Assembly (NCBI GenBank): GCA_016187035.1
Contig: JACPKL010000003.1
Coordinates: 1 to 32,023 of the forward strand
DNA from: Candidatus Daviesbacteria bacterium
GTDB lineage: Bacteria; Patescibacteriota; Microgenomatia; Daviesbacterales; UBA10151
Direction: 5' to 3'
Length of the DNA: 32,023 bases
Numbering within the stretch: position 1 is the first letter of the stretch; each line of letters starts with the position of its first letter. Positions 4,477-30,251 of the stretch are shown here, piece after piece. The position numbers and the translations under genes were made by a program. The notes under the pieces are model-generated. The model was not told the origin of the DNA and made no database searches. It saw nothing but the letters and a program-made list of their open reading frames with translations.

Positions 4477-4502
4477 TCCTACCTCCGAGGTAGGATTATT
4501 TT
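4477..4502. terminator. Hairpin between convergent genes (terminator candidate)
   Basis: tcctacctc-c-gaggtagga perfect palindrome followed by ttatttt. Confidence 0.55.
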
Positions 4503-6388
4503 ACTGTCACACTTTTGGCAATGTTTCTGGGTTTGTCAACATTATGGCCTAACTGCACAGCCATATAATAAGCTAAAACTTGTAGAGGAATTATGTTCAT
4601 AATTGCTGAGGTTTCACCGCTGTCAGGGACAGGTATATGGTAGTCAAAACTGGAATGAGGTTTTGCAGAAATTCCAATCACAGTTGCACCCCTTGCTTTA
4701 ACCTGATTTACAGCATTGATAACATCATCAAAAGAAACATCCTCAGAAACAGCAAAAATTACCGGTACTCCTTTTTCCATTAAGGTAATAGCATAGTGTT
4801 TTAAATCTCCGGCCGGAATACCATGGGCATGGATATATGATCCTTCTATTATTTTAACCATTCCTTCTTTAACAATATTCAGGTTTTGATACTTGCCCAA
4901 CAAAAAGATGTCTTTTCCATGAGCTAACTTTTTGGCCAAATTTTTAAGCAATCTGTGATTTTTCTCAGAAACCAAGTATTGTTCTATTTGATCAGCTAAA
5001 TTTTTTAAATTTTCCCTACCCACTTTGCCCTTCCCGCTTATCACTTTCCCCAGCAGATATCCCCAAGCTATTTGTGAAGTAAACACTTTGGTAGACATCA
5101 CACAAATCTCTGGACCGGCATTACTTGCAAATTTATAATCCGACATCCTGGACATGGTAGAACCGGGCATATTGACATATGAGGCTATTTTTACTCCTTT
5201 CCTTTTAGCAATTTCCAAAACCTCCAAAACGTCAGCAGTTTCACCGGATTGGGAAGGAGCAATCATCACATCACCTTTACCTAAAAGGTCAAAATAATCA
5301 TAAATATCAGCGCCAATCACACTTTGAGCTTTAATTTTACCAAATATTCTTAGATAAAAAGCAATTTGAGAGGCTGCAATACCTGCTGTTCCAGAACCTA
5401 TGGTATAAATATTTTTAGCTCTTTTCAAAGCTTTTGCGAAAATCTGGTATTGCTTTAGATTTTGGTTTAAGACTTGTCTTATTACATAAGGGCTTTCACA
5501 AATTTCTTTTAGCATAAAGTGGCTATAGCCCTGCTTTTCAACTTTTGAGGATTTAAAATTAATTTTTTCCAATGAATAGGGGATGGTCTTATTTGATTTA
5601 ATATCCAAAATTTCCAGCGCGTGATTTTTTAGGTAAACCATCTGTCCGTTATCAATTACTACTATCTTTTCAACAAATGGCGCAAAAGAAAGAGTATCTG
5701 AGGAGAAATACACCTCACTAGGCACACCAGGCCTGGCCTGGGAGCCTAGGCCTACCACCAGGGGGGAGCCATTTCTTGCAGCAATAATTCCTCCTTTGTT
5801 ATTTAAAACAATAATAGTATTTCTTCCTTCAAGCTCTAAAAAGGCTTCTCTTACTGACTGCATTAAATTACCCTGCAACCGATTCGGCCTGAGGCTCACG
5901 GCCGAAGGCCTTCGAGGTTGCAAGCTAAACTTATGCTCTATTAATCTAACTATAACTTCTGTATCTGTCTGTGTTTGGAATTTATAGCCCAATTTTACCA
6001 AATCCTGCTTTAATTTTTGGTAATTTTCCACTATTCCATTTTGAGCCAAACAGAAGCTTTTATCAGAAGAGCAGTGGGGATGAGCATTTACTTCAGTTAT
6101 TCCTCCATGAGTTGCCCAGCGGGTATGGCCAATACCAACATGAGAGTTTAAAGTTAAAAGTTTAAAGTTAAAAGTTTTAATATCTCCAATAGCTCCAACG
6201 TGCTTTTCAACAAATAAATTTTGAATTTTGCCCGCCCCGCTTCGCGGAGCGAGGCCGGGGAATTTTGAATTTTGAATTCCCAATGCAATTCCCCAGGAGT
6301 CATAACCTCTGTATTCCAGTCTTTTTAATCCCTCCAAAATTATTTGAGAGGCATTTTTTGGGCCACTATAACCAAATATTCCACACAT
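4496..6388 (-). CDS. glmS: Glutamine--fructose-6-phosphate aminotransferase (isomerizing)
   Basis: MCGIFGYSG N-terminal nucleophile Cys, GHTRWATHGG, SQSGETADV, two SIS domains, C-terminal DKPRNLAKSVTV-like tail. Confidence 0.95.
   Translation of the reverse strand: MCGIFGYSGPKNASQIILEGLKRLEYRGYDSWGIALGIQNSKFPGLAPRSGAGKIQNLFVEKHVGAIGDIKTFNFKLLTLNSHVGIGHTRWATHGGITEVNAHPHCSSDKSFCLAQNGIVENYQKLKQDLVKLGYKFQTQTDTEVIVRLIEHKFSLQPRRPSAVSLRPNRLQGNLMQSVREAFLELEGRNTIIVLNNKGGIIAARNGSPLVVGLGSQARPGVPSEVYFSSDTLSFAPFVEKIVVIDNGQMVYLKNHALEILDIKSNKTIPYSLEKINFKSSKVEKQGYSHFMLKEICESPYVIRQVLNQNLKQYQIFAKALKRAKNIYTIGSGTAGIAASQIAFYLRIFGKIKAQSVIGADIYDYFDLLGKGDVMIAPSQSGETADVLEVLEIAKRKGVKIASYVNMPGSTMSRMSDYKFASNAGPEICVMSTKVFTSQIAWGYLLGKVISGKGKVGRENLKNLADQIEQYLVSEKNHRLLKNLAKKLAHGKDIFLLGKYQNLNIVKEGMVKIIEGSYIHAHGIPAGDLKHYAITLMEKGVPVIFAVSEDVSFDDVINAVNQVKARGATVIGISAKPHSSFDYHIPVPDSGETSAIMNIIPLQVLAYYMAVQLGHNVDKPRNIAKSVTVK
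5720..5753. repeat. GC-rich palindrome-like insert inside glmS
   Basis: aggcacaccaggcctggcctgggagcctaggcct, locally palindromic; encodes extra residues SQARPGVPS. Confidence 0.5.
5875..5921. repeat. GC-rich palindromic insert inside glmS
   Basis: gcaacc...ggttgc ends with inner ggcctgaggctcacggccgaaggcc; encodes QPRRPSAVSLRPNRLQ. Confidence 0.65.
6146..6180. repeat. Heptamer tandem repeat in glmS
   Basis: gtttaaa gttaaaa gtttaaa gttaaaa gttttaa. Confidence 0.85.
6217..6274. repeat. Four AATTTTG heptamers split 2+2 around a 30-bp GC-rich insert, in glmS
   Basis: aattttg aattttg [cccgccccgcttcgcggagcgaggccgggg] aattttg aattttg. Confidence 0.85.
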
Positions 6389-8009: not shown

Positions 8010-9344
8010 ATGGGTCAAAGAGGACTTGCCGGTAATATTATAATCATAGGAATTTTAGTTATACTAACAGGAGTTGGTGGTTACCTGGTTTTAAATAACA
8101 AATTACTCACCCCAGCTCCAGAACCCACTCCCGCCTCTACACCATCACCAGCTCCTACCTCAACTTCATCTGCTTCAGCTGTACCAGCAGAAAAGCCTAA
8201 AAATATCCCCCAAACCCATAATGCTTTTGGTTTTAATCTGTTTAAGAATTTAAAACAAGAGGAAAGAAATAAAAATTTGTTTATTTCACCCTCAAGCATT
8301 GCCATAGCTTTGTCTATGGTTTTAAACGGAGCTAGCGGGGAAACAAAAAACGCTATCCAAAAAACTTTAAGTTTGAATAATTTAGACATTAATACTGTAA
8401 ATGGAGAAAATCTTAATTTAATAAATATTTCCAAAAAGGGTGACCCTAAAGTAGAATTGTCTATAGCTAATTCTGTCTGGGCCAAGAAAGGCATAAACTT
8501 TAAGCAGGATTTTTTAAGTCTGGTGAAAAATTACTACCAGGCTGAAATTTCAACTTTAGATTTTACTTCTCCTTCTTCTGTTCAAACAATTAACTCCTGG
8601 GTAAGCCAAAATACTAAAGGTAAAATCCCCACCATAGTCCAGTCTATTCCTCCCCAGATGAGGATGTACCTGATCAATGCAGTTTATTTCAAAGGCAGCT
8701 GGAGCGAAGAGTTTGATAAAAAATTAACTGAAGATAGAAACTTTACCCCGGCTGAAGATACGCCTAAAAAACATCCGCTGATGCAGCTTCAAAACAAAGA
8801 TTTACCTTATTTAGAAACAGATACTTTCCAAAGTGTTAATCTATCTTATGGGCAGAATGAGCAAAGCTCTTCTACGAATGAGCAAAGCTCTTCTACGAAT
8901 AAAAGATTAAGCATGTATGTGTTTTTACCTAAAAATTTAGAAAATTTTATTAACAGTTTAAGTATAGACAATTGGAATAAGTGGATGAAACAATACAAAA
9001 TCACTGAAGGCACAATTTTACTGCCAAAGTTTAAAATGGAATATGAAAAAGGATTAATAAATACACTTACCAGCTTAGGCATGGGAATAGCTTTTCAGGA
9101 TAAGGCTGACTTTTCCGGTATTGGTGATGGGTTAAAAATCAGTGAGGTTAAGCATAAAACTTACATTGATGTTAATGAGGAAGGCACAGAAGCTGCCGCA
9201 GTTACCAGTATAGGTATGGGAATTACTGCAATTGGAGCGCCAAAGAAAACTTTCTATATGGAAGTCAACAAACCCTTTTTCTTTGCTATCAGGGATAATC
9301 AAACAGAAGAAATATTATTCATGGGGACTTTGCAAAACCCCTAA
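8010..9344 (+). CDS. Serpin family serine protease inhibitor, N-terminal signal anchor
   Basis: FNLFKNLKQEERNKNLFISPSSIAIALSMVLNGA, LINAVYFKGSW, hinge EEGTEAAAVT, NKPFFFAIRDNQTEEILFMGTLQNP. Confidence 0.95.
   Translation: MGQRGLAGNIIIIGILVILTGVGGYLVLNNKLLTPAPEPTPASTPSPAPTSTSSASAVPAEKPKNIPQTHNAFGFNLFKNLKQEERNKNLFISPSSIAIALSMVLNGASGETKNAIQKTLSLNNLDINTVNGENLNLINISKKGDPKVELSIANSVWAKKGINFKQDFLSLVKNYYQAEISTLDFTSPSSVQTINSWVSQNTKGKIPTIVQSIPPQMRMYLINAVYFKGSWSEEFDKKLTEDRNFTPAEDTPKKHPLMQLQNKDLPYLETDTFQSVNLSYGQNEQSSSTNEQSSSTNKRLSMYVFLPKNLENFINSLSIDNWNKWMKQYKITEGTILLPKFKMEYEKGLINTLTSLGMGIAFQDKADFSGIGDGLKISEVKHKTYIDVNEEGTEAAAVTSIGMGITAIGAPKKTFYMEVNKPFFFAIRDNQTEEILFMGTLQNP
8855..8896. repeat. 21-bp tandem duplication in the serpin gene
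   Basis: gaatgagcaaagctcttctac twice; encodes NEQSSSTNEQSSST. Confidence 0.95.
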
Positions 9345-10905: not shown

Positions 10906-11499
10906 ATGCAGACGGACAATCTCAAGCCATATTCATTGTGGTTAATATCTTCTTGGTTTGGAGCCAGCTTTACTTGTTTAATTTTTGCCATACTTTTTAG
11001 CTTTTATTTATCAAGTCCTAAACTATCCAACCCAATTAACCAGAACTTTAAATCATACGCGGCTTTACCAGAAACAAATTCCCAAGTCTCTGAACAGATA
11101 GAGCGTACAGATGCCCGTCCTAAGATAATTGAAGGATTTTTTAAAAAGTATCACTCACCTTTATCAAGCTTTAGTGAATTATTTGTGGGGGTTGCAGATA
11201 AATATGACTTAAATTACAGATTATTACCTGCCATTGCTATGCAAGAATCAAATGGAGGCAAAAGGGTAATTGCTAATTCCTTTAATCCATTTGGGTTTGG
11301 AATTTATGGCAGTTCAGTTATAAGATTTTCTTCATGGGAAGAATCCATAGAAATGGTAGGCAGGGCATTAAGAGAAAACTATTTAAATATGGGCTTAAAC
11401 ACCCCACAAAAAATTATGACTAAATACACTCCTCCAAGCTTAGCTAAAGGCGGCAGATGGGCTAAAGGTGTTTCTGTATTTATGGAAGAACTGCGCTAA
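10906..11499 (+). CDS. Secreted glucosaminidase/lysozyme-like protein
   Basis: N-terminal TM; DLNYRLLPAIAMQESNGGKRVI...NPFGFGIYG. Confidence 0.7.
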   Translation: MQTDNLKPYSLWLISSWFGASFTCLIFAILFSFYLSSPKLSNPINQNFKSYAALPETNSQVSEQIERTDARPKIIEGFFKKYHSPLSSFSELFVGVADKYDLNYRLLPAIAMQESNGGKRVIANSFNPFGFGIYGSSVIRFSSWEESIEMVGRALRENYLNMGLNTPQKIMTKYTPPSLAKGGRWAKGVSVFMEELR

Positions 11500-11597: not shown

Positions 11598-12179
11598 ATG
11601 AGTAAGAAATTCTTTTTACTTCTCATAGTTACTTTAATTTTCCTAACCTCCTTTTCAAGTAAAATCGTAAGGGCAGAGGAAATTGAGGCTAAACAGCTTG
11701 ATCCTAAAGCAAAAATTTTAGCTCAGTATCTAGCAAAATATAACTCTCCTCTGGAAAATCATGCCCAGGACTTTATAGATGCTGCTAAGGAGTATAATTT
11801 GGACTGGAAATTAGTACCTTCAATTGCCGGTGTGGAATCAACTTTTGGTAAGTTTATCCCTGGAGGATACAATGGCTGGGGTTGGGGAGTGTATGGTACT
11901 CAAGCTATTTATTTTAGCTCCTGGAGAGAAGCTATTTTTACTGTTTCCAAAGGTTTAAGAGAAAACTATTATGATAAAGGGCTGACTGATTTGTATTCTA
12001 TTAATAAAGCATACGCTGCTTCACCTTATTGGGCAGGAAAGGTGGATTATTTCATGGGTGACTTAGAGAAATTCACTTCAGAGTTTGAGGGTGAAAAGGT
12101 AAGCTTACCTGAAACTACTCCTAAAATTGCTGCTATTTCAGCTTCTCTCGCCTTGCGAAACAGGCCTGTGTTAAGATAG
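11598..12179 (+). CDS. Secreted glucosaminidase/lysozyme-like protein, tandem paralog
   Basis: Signal peptide; YNLDWKLVPSIAGVESTFGKFIPGGYNGWGWGVYG parallel to the preceding gene. Confidence 0.72.
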   Translation: MSKKFFLLLIVTLIFLTSFSSKIVRAEEIEAKQLDPKAKILAQYLAKYNSPLENHAQDFIDAAKEYNLDWKLVPSIAGVESTFGKFIPGGYNGWGWGVYGTQAIYFSSWREAIFTVSKGLRENYYDKGLTDLYSINKAYAASPYWAGKVDYFMGDLEKFTSEFEGEKVSLPETTPKIAAISASLALRNRPVLR

Positions 12180-12183
12180 CCTC

Positions 12184-13527
12184 ATGAAAAGTCAATTAGC
12201 AATAACTTTAGGTAAAGCTATCTGCTTTGCCAGCAGATTTTTTAACATTGGTGGCGGTTCAGCAGCTCCTGGTCTATTCGCTTTGCGAATTGATCCTGAG
12301 CTTGTCGAAGGATTAATCAAAAAAATTCCCACAAATGTAGTGATTACAGGTACAAATGGTAAAACAACCACAGCCAGATTAATTGCCCATTTTGCCCGGG
12401 CCCATAATTTAAAAGTCATCAGGAATCATACTGGTTCAAACTTAGAAAGAGGCATAGCTTCTACTTTAATCCAAAATTCGAGGCTACACCTGGAAGGTGT
12501 AAACCTAAACTTTGATCTAGGGATTTGGGAACTGGATGAAGCTGCTTTTAACTTGGTAGCACCTAAGGTCAAACCTGATGTTGTTATTTTTTTAAATGTG
12601 TTTAGGGACCAGCTGGACAGGTATGGGGAAGTGGATAGTGTGGTTAAAAGATGGTGTGAAACTTTAAAAGCTTTACCAAAGACTACCAAGGTTTTAGTTA
12701 ATGGAGATGATTCTAACACAAGTAAACTCGATAAGTGTTTCCCAGGAAAAGTATTAAAATTTGGAGTTAAAGATTATCAGATTTCAGGTGAGAGTATTTC
12801 ACCCAAAAGAGTAAAAAAGAAACTGGATTATGAAGCCAAAGATATAAAACTAAGAAATCTTGCCGGCAGCAGTTTCACCCTCTATACCCCATACTCTATA
12901 CTCCATACTAATTTGCCTTTACCTGGAGTTTACCATATTTATGATGCTGTAGCTGCATTAGCTTGCTCCTCCATTCTTTTTTCTGATACACCAATACACC
13001 GTTACACCAACACTCTTAAAACCTTCACTCTTAAAACCTTTTCCCCAGCTTTTGGCAGGGTAGAAAAGTTTACGTTCAAACCCCAGGGGTTAAATACGTT
13101 CAAACCCCAGGATAATTACATATTTTTAATTAAAAATCCTGCAGGAACAACCCAGGTATTTGAAACAATTGCTCCCCAACTTAAAAGCAGTGACAGGCTG
13201 CTACTGGCTCTAAATGATAATTTAGCTGATGGCACAGATGTATCCTGGATCTGGGATGCCCAGTTTGAAAAACTACCAACTACTAACTACCAACTACTAA
13301 CTACTTGCTCTGGTACCAGAGCATACGATCTGGCTAACCGGTTAAAATATGCAGAGTTTGATCCAAAAACAATTAATACTGAACCTAATCTGGAAAAGGC
13401 TTTTAAGCAGGCTAGAAAGGATCTAAAAGGCAGGTTATTTATCTTACCTACTTATACAGCTATGCTAGAACTACAAAAAATACTGGTAAAAATGGGTATT
13501 AAAAAGCATTACTGGGCATCGGATTAA
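12184..13527 (+). CDS. murT: Lipid II isoglutaminyl synthase, MurT subunit (Mur ligase-like)
   Basis: VVITGTNGKTTTARLIAH, NVFRDQLDRYGE, NGDDSN; followed by GatD-like gene. Confidence 0.9.
   Translation: MKSQLAITLGKAICFASRFFNIGGGSAAPGLFALRIDPELVEGLIKKIPTNVVITGTNGKTTTARLIAHFARAHNLKVIRNHTGSNLERGIASTLIQNSRLHLEGVNLNFDLGIWELDEAAFNLVAPKVKPDVVIFLNVFRDQLDRYGEVDSVVKRWCETLKALPKTTKVLVNGDDSNTSKLDKCFPGKVLKFGVKDYQISGESISPKRVKKKLDYEAKDIKLRNLAGSSFTLYTPYSILHTNLPLPGVYHIYDAVAALACSSILFSDTPIHRYTNTLKTFTLKTFSPAFGRVEKFTFKPQGLNTFKPQDNYIFLIKNPAGTTQVFETIAPQLKSSDRLLLALNDNLADGTDVSWIWDAQFEKLPTTNYQLLTTCSGTRAYDLANRLKYAEFDPKTINTEPNLEKAFKQARKDLKGRLFILPTYTAMLELQKILVKMGIKKHYWASD
12276..12314. repeat. Two adjacent short palindromes inside murT
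   Basis: attcgc-ttt-gcgaat followed by gatcctgagcttgtcgaaggat (translated IDPELVEGL). Confidence 0.6.
12882..12909. repeat. Heptamer tandem repeat in murT
   Basis: ctatacc ccatact ctatact ccatact. Confidence 0.9.
12988..13040. repeat. 8-bp x3 then 15-bp x2 tandem repeats in murT
   Basis: acaccaat acaccgtt acaccaac; cactcttaaaacctt x2. Confidence 0.85.
13071..13111. repeat. 24-bp period direct repeat in murT
   Basis: tacgttcaaaccccagg at 13071 and 13095. Confidence 0.9.
13271..13303. repeat. Heptamer tandem repeat in murT
   Basis: partial aacta, then ccaacta ctaacta ccaacta ctaacta. Confidence 0.9.
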
Positions 13528-13543
13528 CAAAGGGGAAAACATT

Positions 13544-14260
13544 ATGAAGCTCACAATTGGTTATTTATATGGGGATTTAATGAATATATATGGGGATACA
13601 GGTAATATCATTGCTTTGAAAAAACGGGCGCAGTGGCGTGGCATCAAAGTAAAAGTTCAGCTTATCACTCTTAAATCTAAAATCTTAAATCTTAAATCTG
13701 ATCTCTACTTTTTTGGAGGAGGACAGGATCAGCAACAAGAGCTGGTGGCTAAAGACTTAAAAATAAAAGCTAAAATCATTAAATCAGAGGTAGAAAGGGG
13801 AGTACCATTGCTTTCTATTTGTGGTGGTTATCAGCTATTAGGAGCTTATTACAAACCCTATAAAGGCCCAAAGCTTCCTGGAGTTGGGTTATTTCCAATT
13901 TTTACAGAGGCCTCCTCTGACAGGATGATTGGAAATATTGTAATTGAATCAATGTTTGGCAAATTAGTTGGATTTGAAAATCACTCAGGTAAAACTTACC
14001 TTAAAAAAGAAGCTTTACCTTTAGGAATGGTTATAAAAGGATTTGGTAATAATGGGACTGATAAAACAGAAGGCTGTATTTATAAACATGCTGTTGGTTG
14101 TTATATGCACGGGGCTCTCCTGCCTAAAAACCCCAAACTAGCAGACTGGTTAATCAGGAAAGCCCTGGAAGTTAAGTATAAAAAGCAGATTGAACTAAAA
14201 CCTTTGGATGATACTTTAGAGCTCCAAGTTCACCACAAAGCTATCCAAAAATTTAGCTAA
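13544..14260 (+). CDS. gatD: Lipid II isoglutaminyl synthase, GatD glutamine amidotransferase subunit
   Basis: YLYGDLMNIYGDTGNIIALKKRAQWRG, FFGGGQDQQQ, LLSICGGYQLLG nucleophile elbow, HSGKTYL. Confidence 0.9.
   Translation: MKLTIGYLYGDLMNIYGDTGNIIALKKRAQWRGIKVKVQLITLKSKILNLKSDLYFFGGGQDQQQELVAKDLKIKAKIIKSEVERGVPLLSICGGYQLLGAYYKPYKGPKLPGVGLFPIFTEASSDRMIGNIVIESMFGKLVGFENHSGKTYLKKEALPLGMVIKGFGNNGTDKTEGCIYKHAVGCYMHGALLPKNPKLADWLIRKALEVKYKKQIELKPLDDTLELQVHHKAIQKFS
13671..13698. repeat. Heptamer tandem repeat in gatD
   Basis: ttaaatc taaaatc ttaaatc ttaaatc. Confidence 0.9.
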
Positions 14261-14287: not shown

Positions 14288-14429
14288 GTGCCAATCTACA
14301 GATCGGCTCGAGAATATTTTAGCAAAAACTTCTAGCCTTTGCATTTGGTATCGTCAAGGAAAAGGGGTTAAAGGGGAAAAGGAATCCTTCGACTTCAGTT
14401 CGACTTCGCTCACTGCAGGCGTGTCGCTT
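14288..14429 (+). repeat. Left copy of ~142-bp inverted repeat
   Basis: Reverse complement matches 28805-28945 with a single visible 1-nt indel (ttccttgacg vs ttcctgacg). Confidence 0.95.
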
Positions 14430-28804: not shown

Positions 28805-28945
28805 AAGCGACACGCCTGCAGTGAGCGAAGTCGAACTGAAGTCGAAGGATTCCTTTTCCCCTTTAACCCCTTTTCCTGACGATACCAAATGCAAAGGCTA
28901 GAAGTTTTTGCTAAAATATTCTCGAGCCGATCTGTAGATTGGCAC
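28805..28945 (-). repeat. Right copy of ~142-bp inverted repeat
   Basis: Reverse complement of 14288-14429 except 1-nt indel. Confidence 0.95.
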
Positions 28946-29063: not shown

Positions 29064-30251
29064 TCAAAAAAGCTTCCCCCCTTGCGGTATTTTATATTCA
29101 AATCCACTTATAGCGGATACTTCGCCGAAACAGTGTAATTTTTGCTCCTGGTTCTGAGCCAGGAGATGGTATCCACTCCAGGGGCCTAAATTAGCAGATA
29201 CATCATCTAAGATGAAGGGGATGACATATTTGATGGAATCATCAATCTCAGGGAGTGTTTCTTTTAAATATTCATGGGGAGTTTTGTAGTTTAAAGAGGA
29301 GTGTTCTCTCAAGGAATTGTAATAGTAGAGGTATTTTAAGCTTTCTTCAAGCAGGTCTTTCTCAGATCTAATCTTAAATACCCTGGGTATGTAAAATTCC
29401 TCATCATCAGTCCGTTGTGATCTTTCAAGGTGGGCATTTTCTTCAGGGTGGCCTTTGTGGTTCTGGATTAGCTTGCAGCCAAAGCCGGAGATTAGTTTTC
29501 TAAGCTCAGTTACCTTCATCCAGGATTTTCCACCTAATTCCTCCCCATGGTCAACAGTGAATATTATCTCAGATGTAACTCCATGGCTTCTCAGGTAGGA
29601 TATTACCCATAGGTAAAAGCATAGCCCGTTAGTCCAGGTTTTCTCCCTGGCATAGGCAATCAGCTTAAATCTGGAATTAACATCCTCTGCACCCCACTGG
29701 TAGTTAGGTATGTCATACTTATCCAGATGTAGTATTTGAGCTTGGGTTAGGGCTTTCTGATCCCTGATAAACTTAACATCTATCTGGACTATCTCAAATG
29801 GTTTTGAGGAGTACCAATCAACAAACTCCCTTTTAGTAGTTGTTCCTTCCCTGGTTTTGAGTTTGTAGGTTAATCTATGTTTGTTTCTCCTTAAAATATG
29901 CCTGATTGTGCCTGGTGCAACTTTAAGCTGGTAATATTTCTTTAGGTGAATGGATAACCTCATAGGCCCAAATCTGGTTTTGTTTTTAATCTCAATCACT
30001 TTGTCTTCCACTGCCTCCGGAGTTTTGTTAGGTGAGCTTTTGGGAGCCTTGGATCTATCAGTTAGATCTCCCTCATTCCTCTTCCTTAAGATGCCATAGA
30101 TAACAGGCCTTTGAATACCAAATACCCTGGCTTCCTCTGCTACATTATCTCCACTTCCCTTTAAATACTCTAAAACTGCCATTCTGGCAGCTTCAGGGTT
30201 AATCTTTCTTAAGCTCTTGTAGTCAATCTTCATATGGATGGTAGAGTTCAT
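29064..30251 (-). mobile_element. DDE transposase / integrase core (IS3/IS481-like)
   Basis: N-terminal HTH, FEIVQIDVKFI, TVDHGEELGG, HPEENAHLERSQRTDDEEF, YYYNSLREHSSLNYKTPHEYL. Confidence 0.88.

Follow-up and report, generated by a model that had tools for sequence, protein, structure and literature searches.

Heptamer arrays in murT and gatD

The stretch analysed here (the window, 32,023 nucleotides) is one entire contig, JACPKL010000003.1, of a Candidatus Daviesbacteria genome (Patescibacteria of the Microgenomates type) of 1.04 Mb in 13 contigs and about 85% completeness. On its forward strand two open reading frames (ORFs) encode the subunits of lipid II isoglutaminyl synthase, murT (12184..13527, 447 aa) and gatD (13544..14260, 238 aa). 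Our subject is the tandem arrays of 7-bp units that lie inside these genes, two in murT and one in gatD, and at many other places in this and related genomes. Judged by their matches, both proteins are recognisable yet divergent: MurT hits NCBIfam NF045635 (7.5e-56) and GatD hits NF052463/NF045636, in each case under the curated cut-off, and the top structural matches are the Staphylococcus aureus MurT and GatD and related enzymes (PDB 7q8e MurT, 1e-46; 5n9m/6gs2, 2e-55).

The three arrays had been noticed from the sequence alone, and all are present where they were reported, each slightly extended by Tandem Repeats Finder (TRF). The first array of murT (12880..12909, forward strand) reads CTCTATA CCCCATA CTCTATA CTCCATA CT and is scored by TRF as 4.3 units with a 14-bp period and 93% matches. 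The second (13271..13305, forward strand) reads AACTACC AACTACT AACTACC AACTACT AACTACT (5.0 units, 14-bp period, 100%) and encodes about LPTTNYQLLTT. The array of gatD (13669..13699, forward strand) reads TCTTAAA TCTAAAA TCTTAAA TCTTAAA TCT (4.4 units, 91%). The window holds two further arrays in glmS (4496-6388, reverse strand), given here on the forward strand: AGTTTAA AGTTAAA AGTTTAA AGTTAAA at 6145..6177, a position at which two other genera also have arrays, and a short one, (GAATTTT)2.7, at 6260..6278.

Units were said to alternate often in an A-B-A-B manner. This holds for both murT arrays and for the longer glmS array; it does not hold for gatD, and only 9 of the 94 arrays of 28-46 bp in our catalogue pass a test for it. 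Alternation appears to be partly a coding requirement, because the variant bases avoid in-frame stops. Consensus units in every position would create such a stop in 29 of 83 coding arrays, murT array 2 and gatD among them, and the actual arrays have none. In gatD the second unit, TCTAAAA, is the lone variant and stands exactly where the consensus would give an in-frame TAA.

The other repeats reported in murT are likewise there: an 8x3 repeat at 12986-13010, a 15x2 repeat at 13011-13040 and one of 24-bp period at about 13072-13111. Unlike the heptamer arrays of this gene, the 15x2 and 24-bp repeats bring in residues that homologs lack. The 24-bp repeat is a member of a dispersed palindromic family, AACCCC(A/T)GGGGTT(A/G)AATACGTTCAAACCCCAGG, with about 7 sites in the 432 kb sampled from this genome and more BLAST matches on several contigs.

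Abundance and size of the arrays

To the window we added 20 stretches of 20 kb from the same genome, giving a sample of 432 kb (42% of the genome). Relatives were sampled as well; sampled genomes are labelled G000 (that of the window) to G038, ten of them supply the 125 arrays of our catalogue, and runs of N were left out. With the threshold placed where Markov shuffles give about none, the G000 sample has 29-35 period-7 stretches (the number varies with the mismatch penalty), compared with 0-0.25 for the shuffles. Period 14 gives 20-22 stretches and every remaining period 13 or fewer. G000 thus displays the period-7 excess that marks the heptamer class of bacterial simple sequence repeats (Mrazek), and the strong excess of 7-bp units at about four to five copies that the original prediction anticipated is what the scan found. 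Coding fractions are approximate, since they come from a simple ORF caller: 32 of the 38 arrays catalogued in G000 lie in genes, in a sample of which 93% was called coding, and so do 89 of the 125 arrays across the ten genomes, which fall into dozens of unit classes. Array density in four other genera of the family is comparable to that of G000 (8.8 per 100 kb in G000; 9.5 in G009, 9.0 in G004, 11.8 in G006 and 5.9 in G019). It is lower in G012 and G003 (1.5-3), as it is in two further families of the class (1-4), and a small sample of G020 contained none. The presence of arrays in essential cell-wall enzymes, which had seemed unusual, is not peculiar to these: in G000 the genes with arrays include GlmS, topoisomerase I, DNA polymerase I and a class I tRNA synthetase, and in relatives DnaX-, TrpRS- and CarA-like genes (three names assigned by eye).

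Such abundance could reflect ordinary replication slippage, in which a local heptamer gains units, selection keeps the in-frame, tolerable products and compensating deletions restore the length of the loop. Heptamers are the most abundant class of long simple repeats in most surveyed bacterial genomes and slippage is their published cause (Mrazek 2007, as cited in PMC4679880 and PMC4692102). If slippage had built these arrays, two-copy arrays should be the commonest. The size distribution is different. At 16 bp there is no excess (3 period-7 spans against 5.8 for control periods, in 1.23 Mb of five genomes); the excess is small at 17-24 bp, peaks at 31-33 bp (45 against 0.8), and few spans exceed 42 bp. 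Incipient period-7 matches outside arrays were looked for and showed no excess either. The graded copy numbers of slippage, fewer at higher copies, are thus replaced by a typical array of about 32 bp, mostly 25-37 bp and 4-5 units. The median is 32 bp in coding (n=89) and in intergenic (n=19) arrays alike. The recurring copy number had been ascribed to the preservation of the frame; since intergenic arrays share the median, the reading frame cannot set the copy number, which follows from the characteristic array size.

The intergenic arrays bear also on a more trivial explanation, i.e. that the repeats are assembly errors or the chance product of selection for amphipathic peptides. The genomes are apparently mostly draft assemblies, and in the encoded peptides polar residues often alternate with hydrophobic ones. 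Yet, assemblies made separately for several genera agree in the size class and differ in the units, and a 32-bp array is shorter than typical sequencing reads. Selection on peptides does not create a 7-nt period, because 7 is not a multiple of 3, and the arrays in intergenic DNA are alike. We regard this explanation as very improbable.

Array length and unit turnover in homologs

Had murT and gatD expanded in frame from one to four units, as was first proposed, each array should have added 21 bp, i.e. 7 residues. We compared homologs from other genera on both strands, counting segment length as the residues between anchors. The segment with murT array 1 has 14 residues and that with the gatD array 13, in both cases the modal length of array-less homologs (20 of them for GatD), so that neither array brings any gain. 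The segment of murT array 2 has 15 residues, the median of array-less homologs and within their range, two above their mode of 13 and one above S. aureus. Accordingly, the alignment with S. aureus GatD crosses the array without gaps, and that with S. aureus MurT has a gap of one residue at array 2. Homologs without repeats, which have the same or nearly the same length at all three sites, thus speak against expansion by 7 residues there. Their residues at the array sites are not shared with the window, so that of the two observations that would have told against the first proposal, no excess of heptamers or of four copies and the same residues in other genera, neither was made. Among 74 array instances in seven gene families, 21 have exactly the modal length and 28 are within one residue of it. 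In TopA and in some PolA and GlmS loops the array does lengthen the protein and looks like an insertion. On these alignments, the arrays appear to be a mix of replacements and insertions.

The same loops are used repeatedly. In MurT, GatD, GlmS, TopA and PolA other genera hold arrays of different units in the same loops; at MurT site 2 the units are CTACCAA/CTACTAA in the window, AATTGAA-like in G019, GAATTAA-like in G012, GCTGTCA in G001 and CTACGAA in G009. As these loops are variable, the recurrence of arrays in them partly reflects tolerance. We also observed palindromes of the repetitive extragenic palindromic (REP) type, encoding the peptides RGAKRRGN and RRYAPRND, at L031, L033, L044 (murT site 2) and L304, in loops that hold heptamer arrays in other genera.

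A closer comparison is that between G009 and G038, which belong to one genus and whose DNA is about 75-80% identical in the genes compared. Array A of their MurT consists of CTACCAA x4 in G009 and CTACCGA x4 in G038, at equal position, phase and length; in array B most units differ and the length is equal. In all, the length is unchanged at 6 of the 6 sites where both congeners have an array, including sites in DnaX-like, nucleotidyltransferase-like and glycosyltransferase genes, and units can differ. Turnover of units at fixed length is thus what the alignments display. In the gatD array about 50 bp are identical between G009 and G038 despite differing flanks, and 31 bp of these are common to G004. 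Put more broadly, 31-53 bp over the gatD array (L045, L049, L300) are identical in two or three species within flanking coding DNA of about 75-80% identity. This suggests either recent exchange or strong conservation of the stretch.

Three array gains between the congeners are exactly length-neutral, two in a glycosyltransferase gene and one in a TrpRS-like gene. At the first glycosyltransferase site G038 has AATTTTCAATTTTCAATTCTCAATTTTCAATTTTT, with zero length change relative to the ordinary coding sequence of G009. G009 there has NFQFREIKWSRLW, like most aligned genera, and G038 and G004 have the near-identical arrays NFQFSILNFQFLW and NFQFSILNFKFLW. At the second site AAGAGTC x4.5 stands in place of CAAGATACAAGAAACAAG. 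Part of the unit was already present, in phase, in the overwritten sequences: the pre-existing G009 sequence of site 1 starts AATTTTCAATTT, which resembles the incoming unit, and CAAGATACAAGAAACAAG at site 2 is a case of the same kind. These sites, read as aligned, show replacement in place. The size peak and the fixed length argue against stepwise slippage. Slippage is favoured by some protein-lengthening arrays (TopA, PolA, GlmS) and by one gain of 27 nt in G009; we hold it to be unlikely, yet a serious alternative.

Length also bears on the possibility that a short insertion element, akin to REP or to the short tandemly repeated repetitive (STRR) sequences, inserts entire heptamer blocks. 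Blocks of similar size do occur at many loci, and REP-like palindromes lie in the same murT loop of other genera. The gain in length that insertion requires is missing in most conserved-gene cases, and units vary by site. The congener pair offers no clean empty site, as three gains replace sequence of equal length and others add 12 and 27 nt, and no shared ends were noticed at the arrays, whose flanks were not compared systematically. Such an element seems improbable.

Possible origin and relation to known systems

That the old sequence partly resembled the new unit speaks for annealing or for local misalignment. In the latter, the growing strand would re-anneal 7 nt back, keep copying the preceding unit over about 30 nt and then regain register, overwriting what was there. 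This needs no donor, fits the seeds in phase at the overwritten sites, and agrees with the shared array at L265/L310, where units differ by adopting the version of another unit within the array. It is hard to reconcile with three observations, namely a characteristic block size, an imperfect array that G004 and G038 have in near-identical form and G009 lacks, and the recurrence of one unit at six G038 loci that are unrelated to one another. We consider local misalignment a little less likely than slippage.

These six loci, which include PolA-, DnaX- and CarA-like genes, carry AAGAGTC arrays with 91-100% match over 30-34 bp. More generally, unit classes recur in 82 pairs of arrays against 8.7 for random genomic 7-mers, and they recur more within genomes than between them (30 against 18, p=0.006). 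Both the AAGAGTC arrays and this frequent sharing of unit classes speak for copying in trans. Units also have a consensus, [ACT]A[AG][ACG][TG][TA]N, of 3.33 bits against at most 2.86 under a column-permutation null that ignores genomic word bias; within genes it is oriented 58:26, a bias that coding constraint can produce.

We favour, with a probability of about 0.45, a short-patch templated replacement that writes heptamer blocks of about 32 bp, often over resident DNA. A block of 25-37 bp (4-5 units) would arise at once and not unit by unit, often taking the place of DNA of equal length that already resembles the incoming repeat. During replication, or once DNA has been taken up, a short single strand derived from one array might anneal to a site that matches it in part, or to a second array, and be incorporated instead of the resident strand, in a process comparable to short-patch illegitimate recombination or to oligonucleotide recombineering. 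The block could later be replaced or homogenised again with constant copy number, and selection would act as a filter, leaving blocks in tolerant loops. Of this picture, the comparisons show the replacement in place, the characteristic size, the turnover of units at fixed length and the variant bases where stop codons would arise; writing in a single step, annealing, the origin of the short strand and the filtering by selection are inferred.

Several results weigh against this templated replacement. In the seven gene families 17 of the 74 array instances exceed the modal homolog by 6 residues or more, and relative to G038 the murT site 2 of G009 is longer by 12 nt and another G009 gene by 27 nt. 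The polarised comparisons come from one genus pair of about 75-80% DNA identity, for which the alignment of variable loops is uncertain. The seeds at the overwritten sites suit a purely local process equally well. Within-genome sharing of units is modest: a test for any shared heptamer is clear only in G000 and otherwise flat. Finally, in comparing sequences of sampled genomes we saw neither an enzyme nor a short DNA, nor an event as it happened.

A broader proposition, which we put forward more tentatively, is that Microgenomates have an undescribed mutational or mobile process that writes heptamer blocks of about 32 nt in one step, often at constant length, and that by repeatedly rewriting loops of essential proteins would generate protein variation with no risk to the frame. 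A tandem repeat is normally expected to evolve as units are gained and lost; here the sequence of the unit changes and the length stays, and repeats overwrite the coding sequence of essential genes with the frame intact. Should populations confirm it, bacteria with small genomes would have a route to rewrite protein loops, and block size and donor templates would offer a way to test why heptamers dominate among long bacterial simple repeats.

Other features of the window deserve mention. Two neighbouring, related ORFs for small secreted proteins lie 5' of murT (10906-11499 and 11598-12179), and G009 and G038 have a similar pair. A serpin-like ORF (by eye; 8010-9344), unusual for so reduced a genome, contains a perfect 21-bp x 2.2 repeat encoding NEQSSST (8855-8900). 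A 113-bp sequence occurs twice in opposite orientation with 99% identity, at 14288-14400 and, close to a transposase-like ORF (29064-30251), at 28834-28945. Between 19711 and 26889 there is an apparent type I restriction-modification operon (HsdM, HsdS and HsdR by eye), with a gene for an AAA/OLD-like ATPase between M and S.

A search of the openly licensed literature brought up no report of heptamer arrays from Patescibacteria, which within this scope is weak evidence of novelty. In short-patch double illegitimate recombination (SPDIR) in Acinetobacter baylyi and in oligonucleotide recombineering, single-stranded DNA anneals and takes the place of a short stretch. Our arrays may have a comparable origin: at three sites the replacement is length-neutral with a partial match, and AAGAGTC is also present at other loci of G038. 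What is seen here is an evolutionary footprint of the putative process. SPDIR is not known to prefer repeats. The STRR heptamers of the cyanobacteria Calothrix and Nostoc have mainly been described as intergenic simple repeats. They share with our arrays the tandem 7-bp units, the several unit types per genome and the dispersed distribution, whereas the arrays described here are mostly in genes, and many have taken the place of resident sequence with no change in length.

Heptamer repeats have been described from Cyanobacteria, Beggiatoaceae, Bacteroidetes and Xanthomonas (PMC4679880, PMC4692102). The TAACTGA direct repeats of the first three groups consist of one unit, lie mostly directly 5' of start codons, where a role in translational regulation has been proposed, and differ between two close Cyanothece strains mainly by 7-nt indels (MacGregor 2015, PMC4679880). 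Their patchy distribution is similar to what we found. Yet, our arrays are neither dominated by TAACTGA nor mainly intergenic: they comprise dozens of unit classes, lie mostly in ORFs and keep their length at the six congener sites. The GGGAATC repeats of Xanthomonas, which form G-quadruplexes, have one G-rich unit in 2 to 26 copies and are 89-93% intergenic (PMC4692102). They too are heptamers dispersed across the genome, and most have four units; the units we describe are AT-rich, their length range is narrow and their location mostly coding. Hence, what sets the present arrays apart from known heptamer repeats is their location in coding sequence, the diversity of their units, their narrow size and their replacement of resident sequence in place.
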